Positions 23,157 to 32,515 of a stretch of DNA of 64,000 nucleotides are shown one piece after another. The stretch's first letter is position 1. Every line of letters begins with the position of its first letter. A program made the translations under genes and the position numbers. Under the pieces are notes generated by a model, which was not told the origin of the DNA, made no database searches, and was given only the letters and a program-made list of their open reading frames with translations. The DNA comes from Merdibacter massiliensis (GTDB lineage: Bacteria; Bacillota_I; Bacilli_A; Erysipelotrichales; Erysipelotrichaceae). Location: assembly GCF_900155395.1 (NCBI RefSeq), contig NZ_LT699709.1:62001-126000 (forward strand), given 5' to 3'.

Positions 23157-23993
23157 CTACAAAGCATTCGCTCCGCCTACGATCTCTGTGATTTCTTGTG
23201 TGATCGCAGCTTGACGAGCCTGATTAAACGATAACTCTAACTGCTCTTTTAGATCCTGTGCATTGTCCGTTGCATTTTCCATCGCATTTTGTCTGGAACC
23301 TTGTTCACTGGCTTTTGTTTCCAGCCAATAACTATACAACATCGACTTTAGAAACATCGGAATCAAAGTATCCAAGATTGCATCCCCTGCGGGTTCGAAA
23401 ATCATGGACTGCCGGTTAGAAGTCATCTCTTCTTTTTTATCTACAGGAAGCAGTCTTTCCAAACGTGGTTCAAATGTCATAGAATTGACAAAGTTCGTAT
23501 ATAACACCTGAATGCTTCCAATCTCTTTGTTCACATACAGCTGCAAAGCTTCCTGGGCTATAGCCGCAATTTCTTCATATCCTTCTTCATTGATCCCTTG
23601 CAGTGATCGTATCACATGATACCCATGCCGTCTTACCCAAGCATTGCCCCGGCTGCCTACGATGATGATCGGATCTTCTTTTTTCACATTCTCTTCCAGA
23701 ATGCGAAATGTATTGGCATTATAACCGCCGCATAGCCCCATATCGCTGGTATATACAATGGTCAATGCCGGTTTTTGTGCATCATGGACCAAATAAGGAT
23801 GTGTACTGTCAAAAAGATTTGCCAATATATCATCAATGCTTTCTTTCAGATACTTGGCATATTCTCTATTTTCTTCCATGCGGGATTTGCACTTTTTTAA
23901 TTTGCTGGCAGCAACCAGCTGCATGGCACGCGTGATCTTCATCGTCGAATCTACCGAACGGATCCGACTCTTGATCTCTAACTTACTAGCCAT
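23157..23993 (-). CDS. atpG: ATP synthase gamma subunit
   Basis: 278 residues, full length for the F1 rotor shaft. The N-terminal helix (MASKLEIKSRIRSVDSTMKITRAM) and the C-terminal helix ending in ITQEITEIVGGANAL are conserved. It lies 4 nt after atpA. Its stop codon is immediately followed by CAAAGGAG, the remnant of the atpD ribosome binding site and right target half of the IS110 insertion. The coding sequence itself is not damaged. Confidence 0.96.
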   Translation of the reverse strand: MASKLEIKSRIRSVDSTMKITRAMQLVAASKLKKCKSRMEENREYAKYLKESIDDILANLFDSTHPYLVHDAQKPALTIVYTSDMGLCGGYNANTFRILEENVKKEDPIIIVGSRGNAWVRRHGYHVIRSLQGINEEGYEEIAAIAQEALQLYVNKEIGSIQVLYTNFVNSMTFEPRLERLLPVDKKEEMTSNRQSMIFEPAGDAILDTLIPMFLKSMLYSYWLETKASEQGSRQNAMENATDNAQDLKEQLELSFNQARQAAITQEITEIVGGANAL

Positions 23994-23997
23994 AAGA

Positions 23998-25515
23998 CTA
24001 ACCCTTCAAAGAAACGAATACGTCTTTGAATGCTTCCAACGCAGTTTTGATCTTCTCCTCCAATTCTGGAGAAATTGCTTCTTTTTCATCTAATTCGGCG
24101 ATGATGTCCGCATGTTGTTCATGCATGTATGCATGCATCTTCTTTTCATAATCTGCAATATCTTTCACTTCGATATCACGCAAGAATTTATATTTTGCTG
24201 CAAACAATGAGAGCACTTGCTCACTTACGGTCAACGGTGAATACTGCGCCTGTTTCAATAATTCGACCAAACGCTCACCATGATCTAAAGTTGCTTTTGT
24301 TGCCGGATCCAGATCACTTCCAAATTGTGCAAATGCCTGTAATTCGCGATACTGTGCCAGCTCCAGTTTCAAACTTCCTGACACCTGTTTCATTGCTTTT
24401 ACTTGTGCACTGCTGCCAACACGGGATACTGATAGACCGCTGTCTACGGCAGGACGGACACCAGAGTTGAATAATTCAGTCTGCAAGAAGATCTGTCCAT
24501 CCGTAATGGAAATGACATTTGTCGGAATATAGGCAGCGATATCCCCCGCCTGCGTTTCGATGATTGGCAATGCAGTCAACGAACCTGCACCCAGTTCGTC
24601 ATTTAATTTTGCTGCTCTTTCCAATAATCTGGAATGCAAATAGAAGACATCGCCTGGATACGCTTCTCGTCCAGGAGGACGACGCAGCAATAAAGACATT
24701 GTACGATATGCCACTGCATGCTTGCTGAGATCATCATATACGATCAGCACATCTTCCCCGTTTTCCATCCATTCTTCACCGATCGCACAACCTGCATAAG
24801 GCGCGATGTATTGTAACGGGGCAGCCTCGCTGGCTGTAGAAGAAACGATCGTTGTGTATTCCAATGCGCCATTTGCACGAAGCTTTTCAACGATCTGAGC
24901 AACCGTACTTGCTTTCTGTCCGATTGCCACATAAATACATTTTACATTTTTTCCTTTTTGATTCAGGATCGTGTCAACAGCAATTGCCGTCTTTCCTGTC
25001 TGTCGGTCGCCAATGATCAGCTCACGCTGTCCTTTGCCGATCGGAATCATCGAATCGATACACTTCAGCCCCGTCTGCAACGGTTGATGTACCGATTTTC
25101 TTGTCATGACACCAGGTGCCACGCGCTCTACTGGACGGTACTTGTCTGATTGGATCGGATCGCCTCCATCAATGGCTTGTCCTAATGCATTCACGACACG
25201 TCCAAGCATACAATCTCCAACAGGAACCTCCACAATGCGTCCTGTTCGTTTTACTTCATCGCCTTCTTTGATATTGGCGTCAGAACCCATGATAACAGCA
25301 CCAACGTGCTCTTCTTCTAAGTTCAACGCCATTCCATATACATTGCCAGGGAAAAGCAGCAGCTCTCCGGCCATGGCATTTTCTAGTCCATAGATCAAGG
25401 CAATTCCATCACCAACTGTGATGATCGTACCGGTTTCACTGACTTCGAGTGTATCATCATAGCGTTTGATCTGCTCTTTGATGATCTTGCTGATTTCTTC
25501 CGGTCTTAAATTCAC
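23998..25515 (-). CDS. atpA: ATP synthase alpha subunit
   Basis: 505 residues, the non-catalytic nucleotide-binding F1 subunit. P-loop [15 protein letters not shown], the [11 protein letters not shown] segment and [23 protein letters not shown] are intact. The start is a GTG at 25515 (then [15 protein letters not shown]), 6 nt after GAGGTGG and matching the family's N-terminus; the longer GTG reading at 25530 would place the start inside the ribosome binding site. Confidence 0.97.
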
Positions 25516-25534
25516 CTTTTGCCACCTCACATTT

Positions 25535-26074
25535 CTATAACGTTGTATTGATTACGCTTTCTTTCATTTTTTCCAGCCGTTTTGCGGCGCTGTTATCCAG
25601 CACCTCATCATTGATCTTGATACGTACGCCCGCAATCAACTCTTTATGTATGCTGGTCTTCATTTCAATCGTTTTGCCTGTGTGTTTTTCTAACATCTTC
25701 TGCAATGCATCTTTTTCTTCATCGCTTAACGCTCTGGCGCTTTGTACGTAAGCAACTTCAATATCATGTAATGCATTGTATTTTTTGATAAATACTTTTA
25801 CGATTTCAGAAAAATGAGCAAATCGGCTCTTATCGATCAACAATGAAATAAAATGAAGAAGATACGGATCTTCTTGTCCCATGATCTGGCACAAGACTGC
25901 CTTTTTTTCTTTTTTCTCTATTTTTGGATGTTTTAAGAACTGTTTTAATTCTTCATTGTTATTGACTGTCTCATCCAATGCGCATAAAGCTTCCTTAAAA
26001 TGGTCCGCTTTCCCACACTCATTTGCCAATTCAAACAGTGCTTCTGCATAATTTTGTGCAACTAAGCCTGCCAT
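25535..26074 (-). CDS. atpH: ATP synthase delta subunit
   Basis: 179 residues, typical for the OSCP/delta subunit that ties F1 to the peripheral stalk. N-terminal helical bundle ([20 protein letters not shown]) and C-terminal beta domain ([18 protein letters not shown], then AAKRLEKMK) match the family. Its start overlaps the atpF stop by 13 nt. Confidence 0.93.
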
Positions 26075-26583
26075 TTTTCTTCACCAGCTTCTTCGATAAA
26101 ATCTTCCACATATTTCTTATGCGTCGTTTCATCCAGTTCTTTCTCCACGATCTTCTTCGCCGCAAGAAATGCTACTTCACTGATTTCTTCTTTCAGCTGT
26201 TCTCTGACCTTTACTTTCTCGTTTTCAATATCCAGCGCTGCCTTTTCTTTGATCGCATTTGCACTTTCCTGTGCCTTTGAAACGATCGCATTTGCCTCTT
26301 TACTTGCAGCACTTTTGGCATTGGCCATCAATTGTGAAGCTTCCGCTTTCACATTTGCCATCTTTTCTTCATATTGCGCTTTCAACTGTTCGCTTTGCTC
26401 TAAATTTGCTTTTGATTCATCCAGTTGCGACTGAATGAATGCTTGGCGCTGATCCAGATATTCGTGCACATATTTCCAAAAAAACTTTTTTACGATGAAA
26501 ACGATCAAGAGGGTAGAGATCAAAACCAATACAGCATCGTATAGATTGATTCTGAGATAGTCGTCAATATTAATAATATCCAT
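26062..26583 (-). CDS. atpF: ATP synthase b subunit
   Basis: 173 residues. One N-terminal membrane helix (about 17-36, AVLVLISTLLIVFIVKKFFW) is followed by a long Ala/Glu/Lys-rich amphipathic helix (40-165) that forms the peripheral stalk dimer. It stands between atpE and atpH as usual, and its ribosome binding site GGAGGGTAATGG precedes the start closely. Confidence 0.93.
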   Translation of the reverse strand: MDIINIDDYLRINLYDAVLVLISTLLIVFIVKKFFWKYVHEYLDQRQAFIQSQLDESKANLEQSEQLKAQYEEKMANVKAEASQLMANAKSAASKEANAIVSKAQESANAIKEKAALDIENEKVKVREQLKEEISEVAFLAAKKIVEKELDETTHKKYVEDFIEEAGEEKWQA

Positions 26584-26611
26584 TGGGCCATTACCCTCCT
26601 CAATCTTGTTG

Positions 26612-26857
<246 letters not shown>

Positions 26858-26876
26858 TTATTCCTCCTATTTTCAT

Positions 26877-27578
26877 TTATATTTCTTCCCGATCGCAAAA
26901 TTCCCCAAGGAAATACGATGCTAACGTAAAGAAAATATATGTTTGCATAAATGCAGTAAAGATATCAAAATACATATGTAAAAATGGTGTCACTACATAC
27001 AACAATGCGGTAAAGGGCATAAATGCTTTTACCAGCATGTAAAGAAGTGTAACGATGATCGTGCCGCCCAGCATATTGCCGAATAAACGCAGTGTCAACG
27101 ATACCGGGAAAGCCAAATCACCAATCACATTCAGCGGAAACAGAAATGCAATCGGTTCACACCAACCTTTCAATTTTCCAATCACGCCGTGTAAACGAAT
27201 ATCTGTCCCATGAATCAGCAAGAACATCATCATGACCAAAACCAGATCCAAGGTTAGATTGGACGTAGGAGACTGCAAGCCAAGCAGTCCCAACAAATTG
27301 GAGATAACCATCATGATCATGACAGTTCCCATAAAAGGGAGATATTTCCACGTCTTGTTGGTCAAATTTGCTTTTAACACACCCATACAGATATTTACGA
27401 GCTGTTCGAATACAAGAACGACCCCTGTAGGAGCTTTGGTTGGATCTGCCTTTTTGAATTTTGTCCCTGCCCAGCAAAGCAAAATCATGACAAAAAGGCC
27501 AATGATCATCCACAAGAGAATGCTCATGTGAAGCTCAATCGATAACCCGCCAATGTGAATAATCATCTCATTGGTCAA
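26877..27578 (-). CDS. atpB: ATP synthase a subunit
   Basis: 233-residue membrane subunit forming the ion half-channels. Five to six helices are evident; the essential Arg lies in the helix SLTLRLFGNMLGGTIIV, as in all F-type a subunits. It overlaps no neighbour and lies 22 bp before atpE. With the c subunit's Na+ signature, Na+ conduction is expected. Confidence 0.95.
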   Translation of the reverse strand: MTNEMIIHIGGLSIELHMSILLWMIIGLFVMILLCWAGTKFKKADPTKAPTGVVLVFEQLVNICMGVLKANLTNKTWKYLPFMGTVMIMMVISNLLGLLGLQSPTSNLTLDLVLVMMMFLLIHGTDIRLHGVIGKLKGWCEPIAFLFPLNVIGDLAFPVSLTLRLFGNMLGGTIIVTLLYMLVKAFMPFTALLYVVTPFLHMYFDIFTAFMQTYIFFTLASYFLGEFCDREEI

Positions 27579-27580
27579 AC

Positions 27581-27940
27581 TTAAGAATCCTCCTTTCTAT
27601 TTAACAGTGTGATTCCTTTGATGCTCAGGCTGATACAAAGAAAGCCTAACAACATCAACAATATATTCAATCCAGCTTTTGCCCCTAAAAACATGCAGAC
27701 AAAATAGATCAAATAACGAAATATGTATGCATTCAGCATTTTTCTTTTTACATTGCCATAACGTTCGATATGGGCCGTCGAAAACAAAATCAGCACAAAT
27801 CCCAAGATGCTCAGGATACCGCCTAACCATATGGAACAAATATACAGGATATCTTTTCCAAGCAGAAATACAATGGCCGACATCACAAATAAAATACCAA
27901 CTGCAACACGAATAATCAAGCGGTATAACTTATCTTCCAT
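27581..27940 (-). CDS. AtpI-like ATP synthase accessory membrane protein
   Basis: 119 residues with four hydrophobic segments (about 10-28, 32-52, 70-88, 92-110). Position directly before atpB and fold class match the ATP synthase I family, which helps c-ring assembly or Mg/Ca uptake in other bacteria. It starts within the end of the preceding AtpZ-like gene (11-nt overlap) and ends 2 nt before atpB. Sequence identity of this family is low, so the call rests mostly on context. Confidence 0.7.
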   Translation of the reverse strand: MEDKLYRLIIRVAVGILFVMSAIVFLLGKDILYICSIWLGGILSILGFVLILFSTAHIERYGNVKRKMLNAYIFRYLIYFVCMFLGAKAGLNILLMLLGFLCISLSIKGITLLNRKEDS

Positions 27941-28124
27941 CGGGATCTTCCCCCGTTTCTTTGATCAATAAATAAAAACTTCCACCTATGGAGTAGATCA
28001 AAAGTGCAAACATGATCCAAGGAGTCGTTGAAAATTGCTCATCGAGCCATTTTCCTAACAATATTGAAACGATGCATCCCACTACCATACGGGAAGTAAA
28101 TTTAGTGACTGTTTTATTTTTCAT
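27930..28124 (-). CDS. AtpZ-like small ATP synthase protein
   Basis: 64 residues with two membrane helices (about 12-28 and 34-54) joined by WLDEQFSTTPW, the hallmark of AtpZ/AtpI-like proteins (GKWLDxxFxTxPW). First gene of the atp operon. AtpZ partners are thought to act with AtpI in ion uptake or assembly. The ribosome binding site is weak (AGG about 12 nt upstream). Confidence 0.75.
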   Translation of the reverse strand: MKNKTVTKFTSRMVVGCIVSILLGKWLDEQFSTTPWIMFALLIYSIGGSFYLLIKETGEDPDGR

Positions 28125-28493
28125 TTATCTTATACCTGACTGTGATCTTAATAACATGCAGAAATGGGCACCTCTTAATTTCTTATTATAGCGGAAGCAA
28201 ATTGACATATACATGTATTTTTAAAAATGGCCTCTGTGCATGCATACAGAAGTCATCACTTCTCATGTTCCTGTAACGAAAATGGAACCTCATTTCTATT
28301 GCCTATTATATAATTGAAACCCTGTTTTGTAAATCATGACTTCCCTTCTCTTATCTTTCCAAAAGAAATCTGTCCCATATGCTATAATGAAGTTGAATTT
28401 CCTATTTTTTTCTTTTTTTGAATGGTTTATTCCCTTTCATTCGTAGTATAAGTGAAGGCGGGTAAAAAAGAAAACCGCAAAGGAGGAAATACA
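28125..28493. other. Intergenic region with atp operon and sigma-operon promoters
   Basis: 370 bp without a gene between divergent operons. For atp, a minus-strand TATAAT (28190-28185) has a poor -35. For the plus-strand operon, TATAAT at 28383-28388 also lacks a -35. GGAACC (28285-28290) and TGAAACC (28316-28322) resemble ECF -35 elements, so the sigma factor at 28966 may drive its own operon. A small ATACATGTAT palindrome (about 28209-28218) is also present. Confidence 0.45.
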
Positions 28494-28949
28494 ATGAATA
28501 AAAAAATGAAAAAAGTTGTTTTTGGAATGATCGTTGGCGCAACGACACTCTCTATTGGAACTTCCGTATTATTTGCTGCCGAGACCAGCGGGGGAAACAA
28601 TTATGTTGATGTGAACCAGGATGGTATCTGTGATTATTTACAAGATACTTCTGCTGTCATGCAGTCTGCCATTTCCAATTGTAACCAGCCATCCAACGGA
28701 TATGTAGACAATGATCAAGACGGAATCTGTGACAACTATGGCACAGGCAACAATTACGTAGATGAAGATCAGGACGGTATCTGTGATCACTTTCAACAAA
28801 ACAGTGCCCGTGGGCAAGCAGGCAGTCCAGGGGTAGGAAGAGGACAAAGTTATCAATATACAGATGAAGATCAAGACGGCATTTGTGATCATTATGCATC
28901 CAGACCATTAGATGGTTCTGGAAACCAATATCGAAGAGGCAGAAATTAG
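28494..28949 (+). CDS. Secreted protein with four Asp/Cys calcium-loop-like repeats
   Basis: 151 residues, not a family I can name. A signal peptide (about 1-28, ending VLFAAET) is followed by four repeats of Y-[VT]-D-x-[DN]-Q-D-G-I-C-D at about residues 36-46, 69-79, 87-97 and 122-132. Each repeat has the D-x-[DN]-x-D-G-x-x-D spacing of EF-hand, dockerin or thrombospondin-type Ca2+ loops, plus one Cys. The C-terminus is Gly/Arg/Ser-rich. AAAGGAGG lies before the ATG. It leads an operon with an ECF sigma factor and RsgI-like anti-sigma, hinting at a cell-surface or calcium-related signal. Function is inference only. Confidence 0.75.
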   Translation: MNKKMKKVVFGMIVGATTLSIGTSVLFAAETSGGNNYVDVNQDGICDYLQDTSAVMQSAISNCNQPSNGYVDNDQDGICDNYGTGNNYVDEDQDGICDHFQQNSARGQAGSPGVGRGQSYQYTDEDQDGICDHYASRPLDGSGNQYRRGRN

Positions 28950-28965
28950 AATGTAGGTGAGAGGT

Positions 28966-29448
28966 ATGCGAAGTGAAGCAGAAATCAATCAGGCAATCGA
29001 ACGCTATTCTGACATGGTCTGGCGCATTTGTATGCTGCATTTAAAGAATCATGCGGATACAGATGACATATTTCAAACTGTCTTTTTAAAGTACGCTTTA
29101 TACAAAGGAACTTTTGAAAATGAACAGCATGAAAAAGCCTGGCTGATCCGCGTTACGATCAATGCTTGTAAAGATCTATTAAAAAGCTTCTTTCGCAACC
29201 GTACGATCTCCTTGGAAGAGGTCATGGAACAAGCTTCAGCCTTGCAAAATGACGATAAAGGTGTTTTAGAGGCAGTTTTATCCCTTCCGCAAAAATACCG
29301 CGATGTAGTCTATCTGCATTATTATGAAGGATATACGGCACCAGAACTCAGCAAGATCTTACACAAGAATGTCAATACGATCTATACCTTATTGACGCGT
29401 TCCAAGCAACTGCTAAAAAAACAGCTTGGAGGTGATGATGATGAATAA
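28966..29448 (+). CDS. ECF-type RNA polymerase sigma factor
   Basis: 160 residues. Region 2 (about 10-75; YSDMVWRICMLHLKNHADTD, DIFQTVFLKY) and region 4 (about 100-155; LPQKYRDVVYLHYYEGY, APELSKILHKNVNTIYTLL) define a group IV sigma factor. The ATG at 28966 is preferred to the GTG at 28957 because the AGGTGA box would lie too close to the latter. It overlaps the anti-sigma gene, the usual sign of a paired regulator. Confidence 0.9.
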   Translation: MRSEAEINQAIERYSDMVWRICMLHLKNHADTDDIFQTVFLKYALYKGTFENEQHEKAWLIRVTINACKDLLKSFFRNRTISLEEVMEQASALQNDDKGVLEAVLSLPQKYRDVVYLHYYEGYTAPELSKILHKNVNTIYTLLTRSKQLLKKQLGGDDDE

Positions 29449-30196
29449 AAGAATCAAGAGAACTTTTGATCAAATACATGCAGATACACAAACCAAAACA
29501 CAGACCAAAGAATATGTGATGCAGCAGATCCAGCACCATTCCAAACATGGTTCGTCTACTAAACGTGCACTGATTCCAGCCATCGCTTGTTTGTTTCTGC
29601 TCTTCTTTGGTGGAAGATGGTTATTTTTTACACCGACCGCTACCATCAGCATGGATATCAACCCTTCCATCGAATTAAACGTTAACCGCTTCAATCAAGT
29701 GATAGGTGTTCAAAGCTACAATGATGACGGGGAAAAACTATTAGAATCCCTGGATGTTCTTTATATGGATTATGAACAGGCAGTGGATACGATCATGAAC
29801 AATGAAATGATCGCTTCTCTGCTTGAACAAGATGAAATCATGAGCATTGCAGTACTGGGAAGCAATGACACACAAACAGAAACTATTCTCAAACAGATTC
29901 GATCCTGTACCAATTCACAACACACATACTGCTACCGCGGAGATGCAGAAGAGTTGCAGGATGCACACGCTTCCGGTCTCTCCTATGGCAAATACAAAGC
30001 CTATCTGGATCTGAAAGAGGTGGATCCATCTATTCAAATAGACGATGTGAAAAATATGACCATGCGTGAAATAAGAGAACAGATCATCGCTGCTTCTCAT
30101 TCAGATTCCGATGCATTGTCAAGCATTCCCGGCATGAATGGAAATGGAAACGGAAAGAAAGATGGGAATGGATATCAAAAAGGAAAGAATTCGTGA
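29441..30196 (+). CDS. RsgI-like membrane anti-sigma factor
   Basis: 251 residues with a single membrane helix (about 45-63). The short cytoplasmic part presumably holds the sigma factor; the outside part starts with ATISMDINPSIELNVNRFNQV, the hallmark of the middle domain of RsgI-type anti-sigma factors. The C-terminus is Gly/Asn/Lys-rich and unstructured. Three adjacent ATGs follow GGAGG; the third (29441) has the best spacing. In Clostridium thermocellum RsgI outer domains sense polysaccharides; here no carbohydrate-binding domain is attached, so the signal is unknown, and the co-operonic repeat protein is a candidate partner. Confidence 0.82.
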   Translation: MNKRIKRTFDQIHADTQTKTQTKEYVMQQIQHHSKHGSSTKRALIPAIACLFLLFFGGRWLFFTPTATISMDINPSIELNVNRFNQVIGVQSYNDDGEKLLESLDVLYMDYEQAVDTIMNNEMIASLLEQDEIMSIAVLGSNDTQTETILKQIRSCTNSQHTYCYRGDAEELQDAHASGLSYGKYKAYLDLKEVDPSIQIDDVKNMTMREIREQIIAASHSDSDALSSIPGMNGNGNGKKDGNGYQKGKNS

Positions 30197-30238
30197 AAGA
30201 AAACGGATTGTCATTGTACAATCCGTCTTTTTCTTTCA
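30195..30238. terminator. Bidirectional terminator between the sigma operon and the U32 gene
   Basis: GAAAGAAAA...CGGATTGT paired with ACAATCCG...CTTTTTCTTTC around a 6-nt loop; T run on the plus strand and pyrimidine tail on the minus strand. Confidence 0.8.
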
Positions 30239-32515
30239 TTGATCCATCTGTTCCTGCGTTCTTTGCAGGATCTTTTTTGTCTCTTCTTTCGATTCGATCG
30301 TAAAGCGAAGATAGAAAGAAGAGATTCCAAGTGCCTGATATTGTTTCATTTGCTCAATATGATCATCAGGACAAGTATGCAGGATACGCATATTGCAACA
30401 TTCATCGTTATGGAAAGGAAAGATCCTTCCCTTTTCATCTTTAAGGTAATAGGTATGTTTCCTGCATAAAGAACATCCTTGTTTGCGGCCATCTTTGCAA
30501 TAGGTATTGATCAAACAAGTCCTAGAAGTCATCAAGTCACGATAGCCATAAATCATGAGCGCCAAATCCGGAAGGCATTTTCCTTCTTTTGCAAAAGAAG
30601 CACATAATTGTTGAATGCTTTCCATGTCATGTTCTAAAGATAAAACGATCGTCTGGACGCCTTGTGCACTGGCAAAGGCAGCTGCAGCTTTATTTGTAAT
30701 GTTCAATGTTGCATCCACGATCTGCCGCCCCATGGACAATGCTCCATTCTCTCCGCCCATACAGGCTTCCTGCTTTCCTTTTACGATATTTCCTTCATGA
30801 AAAGCAATTGTTTCTCCTTTTTCATATAGAGCATTATACAATTGTCTGCTTGTTGTCAACACGTTGGCAATGCCCGCTTCTTTACATGCCTGATACTGTT
30901 CCAGCGACTGTACACAGGCAAACAGCTTTAAAGGATCGGTTGCAGGATGCCAACTACGTTCATAGTGAGCAAAACGGCGCTCTGGATGCCGGTGTTCCCT
31001 TTTCGACAACAGCTGTGCGACTGCTGTTCGGCGTACTTGCTTGATTTGTCCAACGCTCATAAAGCATTGCCCGCTGATCGTACACTGAAACGTATCCAGC
31101 TGAAATGGCGTATCTCCTAATTGTGCAAATGCTGTTTGAAAAGCTTCTTCTTTCATCGGGGCATTTTTGGCTTGCTGTACTGCTTGTTCACTTTGTACTT
31201 CTACATGGAATCCTTCTTCATCTGTTATTTGACAAGATAACGGTTTTCCTGCTTCCACCTGCACTTGCACCGTCACTTTCACATGACGCGCATCCGCATA
31301 TGTTTGACGGATCCGATTTTGCAATTCTGCATTTGTCGTCTTTCTCACTTGTGCCCCTTTGCAAGCTTCGATCTTATGATCGATCTCAACAGTTTCTCCT
31401 GCGTGGGCAGCCGCAACCAGTTTTCCATTATGATATAAACGATTAACGATGCATCCTTCATCTTCCGCTTTGCCTATGATGCGGATGCCGTCGCCTTGAT
31501 GCAAATTCTCTGTTAACTGGATCTTGATCCGCTGTTTACTGACCGATACTACTTTTCCCAGCAGGATTCCCTGATGATTCGGCCGAAACGGGTTCATCAT
31601 CGCTGTTCCAGGTGCATGAAAAGCATATCCATCTGTAAAGCCGCGGCTGAACAACTGCCGCAAATCATCTGTTTCTTGCTTGCTTATCGAGAAATGATGA
31701 TGGGATGCCCATGCATCGATTGCCTTGCGATACATAGAGACGACCTGAGCCACATATTCCGGTTTTTTCATCCTTCCTTCAATCTTCAATGATCGAATAC
31801 CGCTATCTAACAAACTTGGCAGTTCCTGCAGTGTAAACAGATCTTTTGGACTTAACAAATAATTTCCTTTTGTTTCGATACGCCGATCTCCATTTTGTCC
31901 TTTCTCCCACAGCGAATAGCGCATTCGGCAAGGTTGTGCACATTCTCCGCGATTACCGGATCTACCCAAAAGCGTAGAGCTCATCAAACACTGTCCCGAA
32001 TAACAAAGACAAAGAGCCCCATGTACAAAGGCTTCAATATCCACATCGTATTTTGTCATCGCTGCAATTTCTTCTATCGTACTTTCACGGGGAACGACGA
32101 CACGGGAAATACCCAGTTTTTTTGCTGTTTCCACGCCTTGTGCGTTGTGGATATGCATTTGTGTAGAAGCATGCAATTCGAGATCCGGCATTTCTTGATG
32201 TATTCGATCACAGAGACCGATATCCTGGATCAGCAATGCATCCACATCATGTGTATAAAGAAACCGGGCATATTGTACAGCTTCTTCCATCTCATCATCA
32301 TAAATCAATGTATTCATCGTCACATAGACTTTCACGCCATAACGATGTGCATATCGAATAGCTTCCTGTATCTGCTGACGGTCAAAATTTGAGGCAAACG
32401 CACGTGCACCGAACATTTCGCCGCCCAGATACACCGCATCGCAGCCGGCCTGTATGGCAGCTTGCAAAGAATCCATACCACCAGCAGGCGCTAATAATTC
32501 CACCTGTTTCATCAT
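30236..32515 (-). CDS. U32-family peptidase (with DUF3656-like C-terminus)
   Basis: 759 residues. The N-terminal TIM-barrel starts VELLAPAGGMDSLQAAI and carries the U32 signature region ALCLCYSGQCLMSS with GNRGECAQPCR, whose Cys residues are typical Fe-S/catalytic positions of the RlhA/TrhP group. The C-terminal half contains the beta-barrel and DUF3656-type domains of long U32 proteins, ending with another Cys-rich patch (KQGCSLCRKHTYYLKDEKG). Members hydroxylate rRNA or tRNA with prephenate; others were first described as collagenases. RNA modification is the more likely role but is not proven. GGAGGGG lies before the ATG pair. Confidence 0.88.
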   Translation of the reverse strand: MMKQVELLAPAGGMDSLQAAIQAGCDAVYLGGEMFGARAFASNFDRQQIQEAIRYAHRYGVKVYVTMNTLIYDDEMEEAVQYARFLYTHDVDALLIQDIGLCDRIHQEMPDLELHASTQMHIHNAQGVETAKKLGISRVVVPRESTIEEIAAMTKYDVDIEAFVHGALCLCYSGQCLMSSTLLGRSGNRGECAQPCRMRYSLWEKGQNGDRRIETKGNYLLSPKDLFTLQELPSLLDSGIRSLKIEGRMKKPEYVAQVVSMYRKAIDAWASHHHFSISKQETDDLRQLFSRGFTDGYAFHAPGTAMMNPFRPNHQGILLGKVVSVSKQRIKIQLTENLHQGDGIRIIGKAEDEGCIVNRLYHNGKLVAAAHAGETVEIDHKIEACKGAQVRKTTNAELQNRIRQTYADARHVKVTVQVQVEAGKPLSCQITDEEGFHVEVQSEQAVQQAKNAPMKEEAFQTAFAQLGDTPFQLDTFQCTISGQCFMSVGQIKQVRRTAVAQLLSKREHRHPERRFAHYERSWHPATDPLKLFACVQSLEQYQACKEAGIANVLTTSRQLYNALYEKGETIAFHEGNIVKGKQEACMGGENGALSMGRQIVDATLNITNKAAAAFASAQGVQTIVLSLEHDMESIQQLCASFAKEGKCLPDLALMIYGYRDLMTSRTCLINTYCKDGRKQGCSLCRKHTYYLKDEKGRIFPFHNDECCNMRILHTCPDDHIEQMKQYQALGISSFYLRFTIESKEETKKILQRTQEQMDQ

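Follow-up and report, generated by a model that had tools for sequence, protein, structure and literature searches.

A secreted Asp/Cys repeat protein in one operon with an ECF sigma factor and a SEAL-type RsgI-like anti-sigma factor: a possible autoregulated extracellular loop in gut Firmicutes

Within the 64-kb stretch of DNA analyzed here (the window), a gene for a small secreted repeat protein (REP), an ECF sigma factor gene and a gene for a single-pass anti-sigma factor with an RsgI_M domain form one operon, all on the + strand. The three parts had been described in an earlier note made from the sequence alone, and ORF and Pfam analysis found each of them where the note had placed it. The rsgI start overlaps the sigma stop codon. 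For the sigma gene, the listed start (GTG 28957) is probably wrong and ATG 28966 the better choice, since the relatives all start MRSE. As read from translations, an F1Fo-ATP synthase-like gene cluster lies upstream on the minus strand (window 23157-28124) and a probable U32-type peptidase gene downstream (window 30236-32515). The operon has the following features:

28419..28445, + strand: ECF-type promoter TGAATG-N15-TTCGTA, preceding the operon; sole exact match within the 64-kb window
28494..28949, + strand: REP, 151 aa; ORF from ATG 28494 to TAG 28949, backed by relatives
28494..28580, + strand: REP signal peptide MNKKMKK...VLFAA, predicted from composition by eye and with a custom detector
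28608..28634, + strand: REP repeat unit 1, DVNQDGICD
28707..28733, + strand: REP repeat unit 2, DNDQDGICD
28761..28787, + strand: REP repeat unit 3, DEDQDGICD
28863..28889, + strand: REP repeat unit 4, DEDQDGICD
28966..29448, + strand: ECF sigma factor, MRSE..., with Sigma70_r2 and r4_2 above cut-off
29441..30196, + strand: RsgI-like anti-sigma factor, 251 aa, from ATG 29441; Pfam, AlphaFold2 pLDDT 89.5
about 29576-29629, + strand: single transmembrane segment of the RsgI-like protein
29639..30007, + strand: RsgI_M/SEAL-type extracytoplasmic domain (PF23750, E=3e-28; Foldseek)
29660..29665, + strand: Asn74-Pro75 in DINPS, the predicted autocleavage bond, from alignment to 8hep_B
29930..29932, + strand: Cys164 of the RsgI-like protein, in strand 162-166
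29966-29968, + strand: His176 of the RsgI-like protein
30203..30226, + strand: terminator-like hairpin at the 3' end of the operon

REP begins with a Lys-rich and hydrophobic stretch ending ..VLFAA, predicted by eye to be a signal peptide, and the ORF and its motif positions confirm the four DGICD repeats behind it, each of the form Y-[VT]-D-x-[DN]-Q-D-G-I-C-D; a fifth Cys lies outside the units. The protein is Asp/Cys-rich and His-poor. Membership in a known family was ruled out, as Pfam and NCBIfam yielded no matching family and PDB no convincing relative; the AlphaFold2 model (pLDDT 61) was too poor for a structure search. Three pairs of relatives gave dN/dS values of about 0.17-0.23, which places REP under purifying selection. 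A degenerate codon pattern of one unit was matched in 20/195 Erysipelotrichaceae and 22/200 Lachnospiraceae genomes, and the unit is not a chance pattern, because the reversed codon pattern gave only 0 and 3 matches, respectively. We found no paper on the common but unannotated secreted repeat YVDxDGDGICD in the literature searched, which was thin on subscription journals.

The earlier note had also seen the oxygen-ligand spacing of Ca2+ loops in these units. This stands for positions 1, 3, 5 and 9, where the ligands are nearly invariant across 63 units, but not for position 12, which is acidic in canonical EF-hands and dockerins and variable in the four units of the window. Each loop carries one Cys, invariant at position 8, and some units contain CxxC. 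Pfam returned no EF-hand or dockerin match for the window REP, although weak Dockerin_1 and EF-hand matches occurred in 4/24 REP relatives each; judged by profile and ligand set (positions 1, 3, 5, 7, 9 and 12), the window protein does not belong to either group.

The sigma factor matched Sigma70_r2/r4_2 and TIGR02937, and its sigma2 and sigma4 domains without others, its adjacent anti-sigma factor and its own promoter class place it among the ECF sigma factors; its match to SigV (E=3e-18) was below the cut-off. The RsgI-like protein matched PF23750 with 99 bits (cut-off, 25.3; E=3e-28) and contained no C-terminal sensor domain in Pfam, which agrees with the earlier description of a single-pass anti-sigma factor with an RsgI middle domain. 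Foldseek related its ectodomain to Bacillus subtilis RsgI (8t9n, E=1.5e-8) and to Clostridium thermocellum RsgI1/2/6/9, so that both profile and fold, together with an Asn-Pro scissile bond in DxNPS, identify it as an RsgI_M/SEAL protein. The bond N74-P75 is the predicted site of autocleavage, because the first residue of the solved cleaved chain 8hep_B aligns with Pro75. Only RsgI_M was matched: searches of Pfam and NCBIfam revealed no RsgI_N cytosolic domain, and with an ECF rather than a SigI-family sigma factor the pair falls outside SigI-RsgI proper. The same genome encodes a site-2 protease family, and RsgI autocleavage initiates intramembrane proteolysis (PMC12203970). The NP motif is kept in 51/55 partner-bearing RsgI relatives. 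Four partner-bearing RsgI-like proteins (L004, L032, L043 and L099) have lost Asn-Pro while keeping the partner gene.

Across 395 Erysipelotrichaceae and Lachnospiraceae genomes, with family assignments derived from named relatives at these loci, 29/36 small REP genes adjoin an RsgI_M gene. The repeat is thus strongly and conservedly linked to RsgI/ECF genes, and it does not occur mostly without the sigma/anti-sigma pair, the outcome that the earlier note had named as a refutation. By family, 15/18 small REP genes in Erysipelotrichaceae (195 genomes) have an RsgI_M gene beside them or, where the contig breaks off, the sigma gene that goes with it, and 14/18 in Lachnospiraceae (200 genomes; motif match G747 left out) lie beside an RsgI_M gene; the remaining motif matches were unrelated large proteins or other ORFs. 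The order REP-sigma-rsgI is kept in Erysipelotrichaceae, Lachnospiraceae and Oscillospiraceae, whereas the outer neighbors vary between genera, and there is therefore no single conserved chromosomal block. No such linkage holds for seven REP genes. Among their genomes, three (G086, G562 and G048) yielded no short RsgI of the partner-bearing clade in our search, two others (G166, L037/L033; G684, L076/L069) hold a sigma-rsgI pair with no neighboring partner and, in G598 (L077/L068), a separate partner of the His type accompanies the pair. The standalone DGICD protein at L077 is followed by an in-frame repeat resembling the Listeria-Bacteroides type and preceded by a diverged version of the REP promoter.

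Further observations concern the setting of individual REP genes. Two of them, at L018 and L019, are nearly identical (dS 0.03) beside strongly diverged rsgI genes (dN 0.44), a contrast suggesting that REP recombines or is moved among operons. Upstream of REP at L013 and L014, two loci in different families, translations indicated a permease gene and a regulator of ArsR type, possibly a metal(loid) hint; the L013 region also contains a thioredoxin-like gene.

Short RsgI proteins without a DGICD protein proved, on reading of their upstream regions, nearly all to adjoin another small secreted Cys/His-rich protein, and in many orthologous operons this His/Cys-rich partner has no DxDxDG loop at all. 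With a detector for a signal-like start, a ribosome-binding site and a hydrophilic mature part with Cys/His, applied to loci chosen by RsgI ORF length rather than at random, we found a partner near 42/58 short-RsgI loci and 0/16 long-RsgI loci, although two of the latter (L002 and L088) do carry a REP that was missed. Manual reading added about ten short-RsgI partners (for example, L009, L018, L019, L030, L031, L063, L067, L085, L089 and L090); L029, L033, L053 and L054 are short RsgI loci with no adjacent partner. Across the 64-kb window the detector was positive once, at REP itself. At L061, L062 and L064, the sigma factor is non-ECF (SigI-like by reading) and a small secreted Cys/His-rich partner is encoded divergently from the short RsgI, and at L067 and L068 the partner gene lies downstream of rsgI, so that the association follows RsgI and not the sigma type or gene order. 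At L094, a thioredoxin-like protein containing CxxC is encoded ahead of the sigma/RsgI pair.

A common promoter, TGAAWG-N15-WTCGTA, occurs upstream of REP genes. Allowing at most one mismatch, it precedes 31/35 DGICD loci (2/175 shuffled sequences) and 9/16 loci with other partners (1/80 shuffled sequences), but only 1/17 loci with no partner, the exception being the short RsgI at L033, whose genome (G166) has an unlinked REP; there, both copies of the promoter, one before the unlinked REP and one before the sigma-rsgI pair, are exact. Chance linkage was ruled out by this promoter evidence and the detector counts for short versus long RsgI. Exact matches numbered 28 in 15 genomes. An off-register control scan with a 16-base spacer gave 7 exact matches, none of which preceded the window operon. 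Beyond REP/sigma operons, exact matches were nearly all inside ORFs, at about the reversed-control rate, leaving a few intergenic ones (L151, L154 and L158). As judged from these matches, the recognizable sigma regulon would be REP and the switch itself, that is, the operon, although weaker promoters may have escaped the search. The secreted protein would then be the main recognizable sigma target, an output and not simply an input.

The partner and the RsgI ectodomain also resemble each other. Within an operon their C-terminal tails are alike, either both His/Gly-rich or, as in the window (few or no His), both Arg/Lys/Gly/Asn-rich. We compared His counts in 30-residue tails by independent contrasts on the RsgI tree: His in the partner tail covaried with His in the RsgI tail (r=0.53, sign-flip p=0.0002) and in the remaining RsgI ectodomain (r=0.38, p=0.008), whereas His in the cytosolic segment of RsgI (0.04) and in the sigma factor (0.05) showed no such link. 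Cys counts of partner and RsgI did not covary in the same test (r=-0.05). Matching of whole tail composition was significant, but so was that of internal control segments, and this measure was set aside. In the RsgI tree, partner-bearing proteins make up approximately one supported group (97/91), in which DGICD partners are intermixed with other partner types; the only disturbances are a trio on long branches and a few members lacking a partner. An ectodomain Cys occurs in 53/55 partner-bearing RsgI proteins versus 6/28 others, three of these six in the same clade, and a His at the H176 column in 40/55 versus 0/28. Since the partner-bearing proteins are approximately one clade, this Cys/His marker reflects one origin that was retained, not many independent gains. 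Together, the covarying His of the exposed tails and the confinement of Cys/His to partner-bearing RsgI favor an extracellular functional coupling of REP and RsgI, although the His link may instead reflect a genome-wide tendency of secreted proteins to carry His.

We tentatively favor, at slightly less than even confidence, an autoregulated three-gene ECF/SEAL module with a secreted main output that shares ligand chemistry with the RsgI ectodomain and feeds back on it. The RsgI-like protein would receive an extracellular stimulus at its short ectodomain, the two halves left by cleavage would then separate and a site-2 protease would free the sigma factor, which would mainly transcribe the secreted-partner gene and itself. 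Both the RsgI ectodomain and the partner, which has four DxDxDGICD loops here and is His/Cys-rich elsewhere, would recognize the same kind of ligand through Cys, His and Asp, and the partner would handle that ligand outside the cell and feed back on RsgI. A soft or transition metal ion or a thiol-reactive compound is a likelier ligand than Ca2+, because all partners have Cys/His and DxDxDG loops are one version among them. In the window, with its His-poor tails, a metal role would depend on Asp and Cys.

The earlier note had proposed the secreted protein as sensor or ligand of the anti-sigma factor. Behind it stand the conserved linkage and, for an extracellular coupling, the covarying His and the Cys/His confined to partner-bearing RsgI; the note did not foresee that REP lies behind an ECF-type promoter as the main recognizable sigma target. 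A strict form of that idea, in which REP is an obligatory detached sensor or ligand replacing in trans the C-terminal sensor of long RsgI proteins, would explain why the detector found partners with short RsgI and none with long RsgI (the two missed REP genes aside) and also fits the covariation of the tails. We nonetheless regard it as unlikely, since the main sigma target would be scarce before induction, unless basal expression suffices, and short RsgI proteins with no adjacent partner exist. The reverse, that REP is output only, a secreted stress protein of the ECF regulon whose linkage is co-regulation and which neither contacts nor feeds back on the anti-sigma factor, is somewhat more plausible, although still improbable. 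It agrees with the position of REP first behind the sigma promoter, as the main recognizable target, and with the promoter retained by the unlinked REP of G166. It does not predict that partner His counts follow those of exposed RsgI segments but not those of cytosolic ones, or that the partner remains a neighbor of rsgI whether the sigma factor is ECF or non-ECF SigI-like and wherever the partner gene is placed.

Two readings name a specific chemistry. A thiol/disulfide switch between REP cysteines and the exposed RsgI Cys could draw on the near-universal ectodomain Cys of partner-bearing RsgI, the single Cys per loop and the CxxC of some units; we consider it quite unlikely, as Cys counts do not covary, the His-rich tails are left unexplained and obligate anaerobes offer a reducing setting. 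Sensing of Ca2+ through the DxDxDG loops is less probable again. The near-invariant ligands and the weak profile matches in relatives point toward it, but the window REP has neither a profile match nor a constant position-12 ligand, and the many loop-free partners at the same place in orthologous operons led us to reject a Ca2+-dependent signal, one example the earlier note had offered, as a general theme; the window REP itself may still bind Ca2+.

Returning to the autoregulated module, we suggest more guardedly still that it may represent an undescribed, widespread three-component class in gut Firmicutes, in which the fused RsgI sensor is replaced by a fast-evolving secreted Cys/His/Asp protein, both main sigma target and co-evolving ectodomain partner, in a closed extracellular homeostatic loop. 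In dozens of genera from the gut, the SEAL-type domain is wired to ECF sigma factors and a dedicated secreted protein, which also gives a context to the YVDxDGDGICD repeat. Because the promoter is specific enough for the regulon to look like the switch and a single output gene, the stimulus should be findable with three genes and a reporter, and the module could serve as a small orthogonal sensor.

Anti-sigma factors of the autocleaving RsgI/SEAL type have chiefly been known together with SigI and fused carbohydrate sensors. The SigI-RsgI systems of B. subtilis and C. thermocellum (RsgI1-9) share with the operon the RsgI_M/SEAL ectodomain, the DxNPS autocleavage motif and the fold match, and their regulated intramembrane proteolysis has been described (PMC12203970). 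The operon differs in its ECF sigma factor, the lack of an RsgI_N match and of a carbohydrate-binding or other fused sensor, and its dedicated secreted partner gene. SigV-RsiV likewise combines an ECF sigma factor with a single-pass anti-sigma factor destroyed by intramembrane proteolysis, but RsiV is not an RsgI_M protein and we know of no secreted partner gene. RsiV senses an external enzyme, lysozyme, via its own domain (PMC4183432). A comparable layout is that of CnrYXH (Cupriavidus metallidurans; nickel/cobalt), also an ECF sigma factor, a membrane anti-sigma factor and an exported metal-ligand-type protein in one operon, with CnrX as the sensor (PMC4598750). However, CnrX is folded and acts on CnrY, whereas here the anti-sigma factor is of RsgI type and the partner low-complexity and fast-changing; we claim no sequence relation. 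Composition and the His covariation are the observations that bear on a possible CnrX-like metal role of the partner.

CpxP and ZraP, the latter a zinc-binding protein, are exported, strongly induced outputs thought to feed back on their own sensor kinases. The proposed feedback by an exported output is alike, but the regulators are two-component systems and no relation between the sequences is known. REP shares the DxDxDG core and the Asp at position 9 with the calcium loops of EF-hand, dockerin and thrombospondin type-3 proteins, but it has an invariant Cys at position 8 and no constant position-12 ligand, and Pfam misses the window protein. The literature searched, thin on subscription journals, did not contain the combination of an ECF sigma factor, a sensorless SEAL-type RsgI and a secreted partner. 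Each part is of a known kind, and their combination, an ECF sigma factor and a SEAL-type RsgI with no fused sensor and with a secreted partner as main output, appears to be undescribed.
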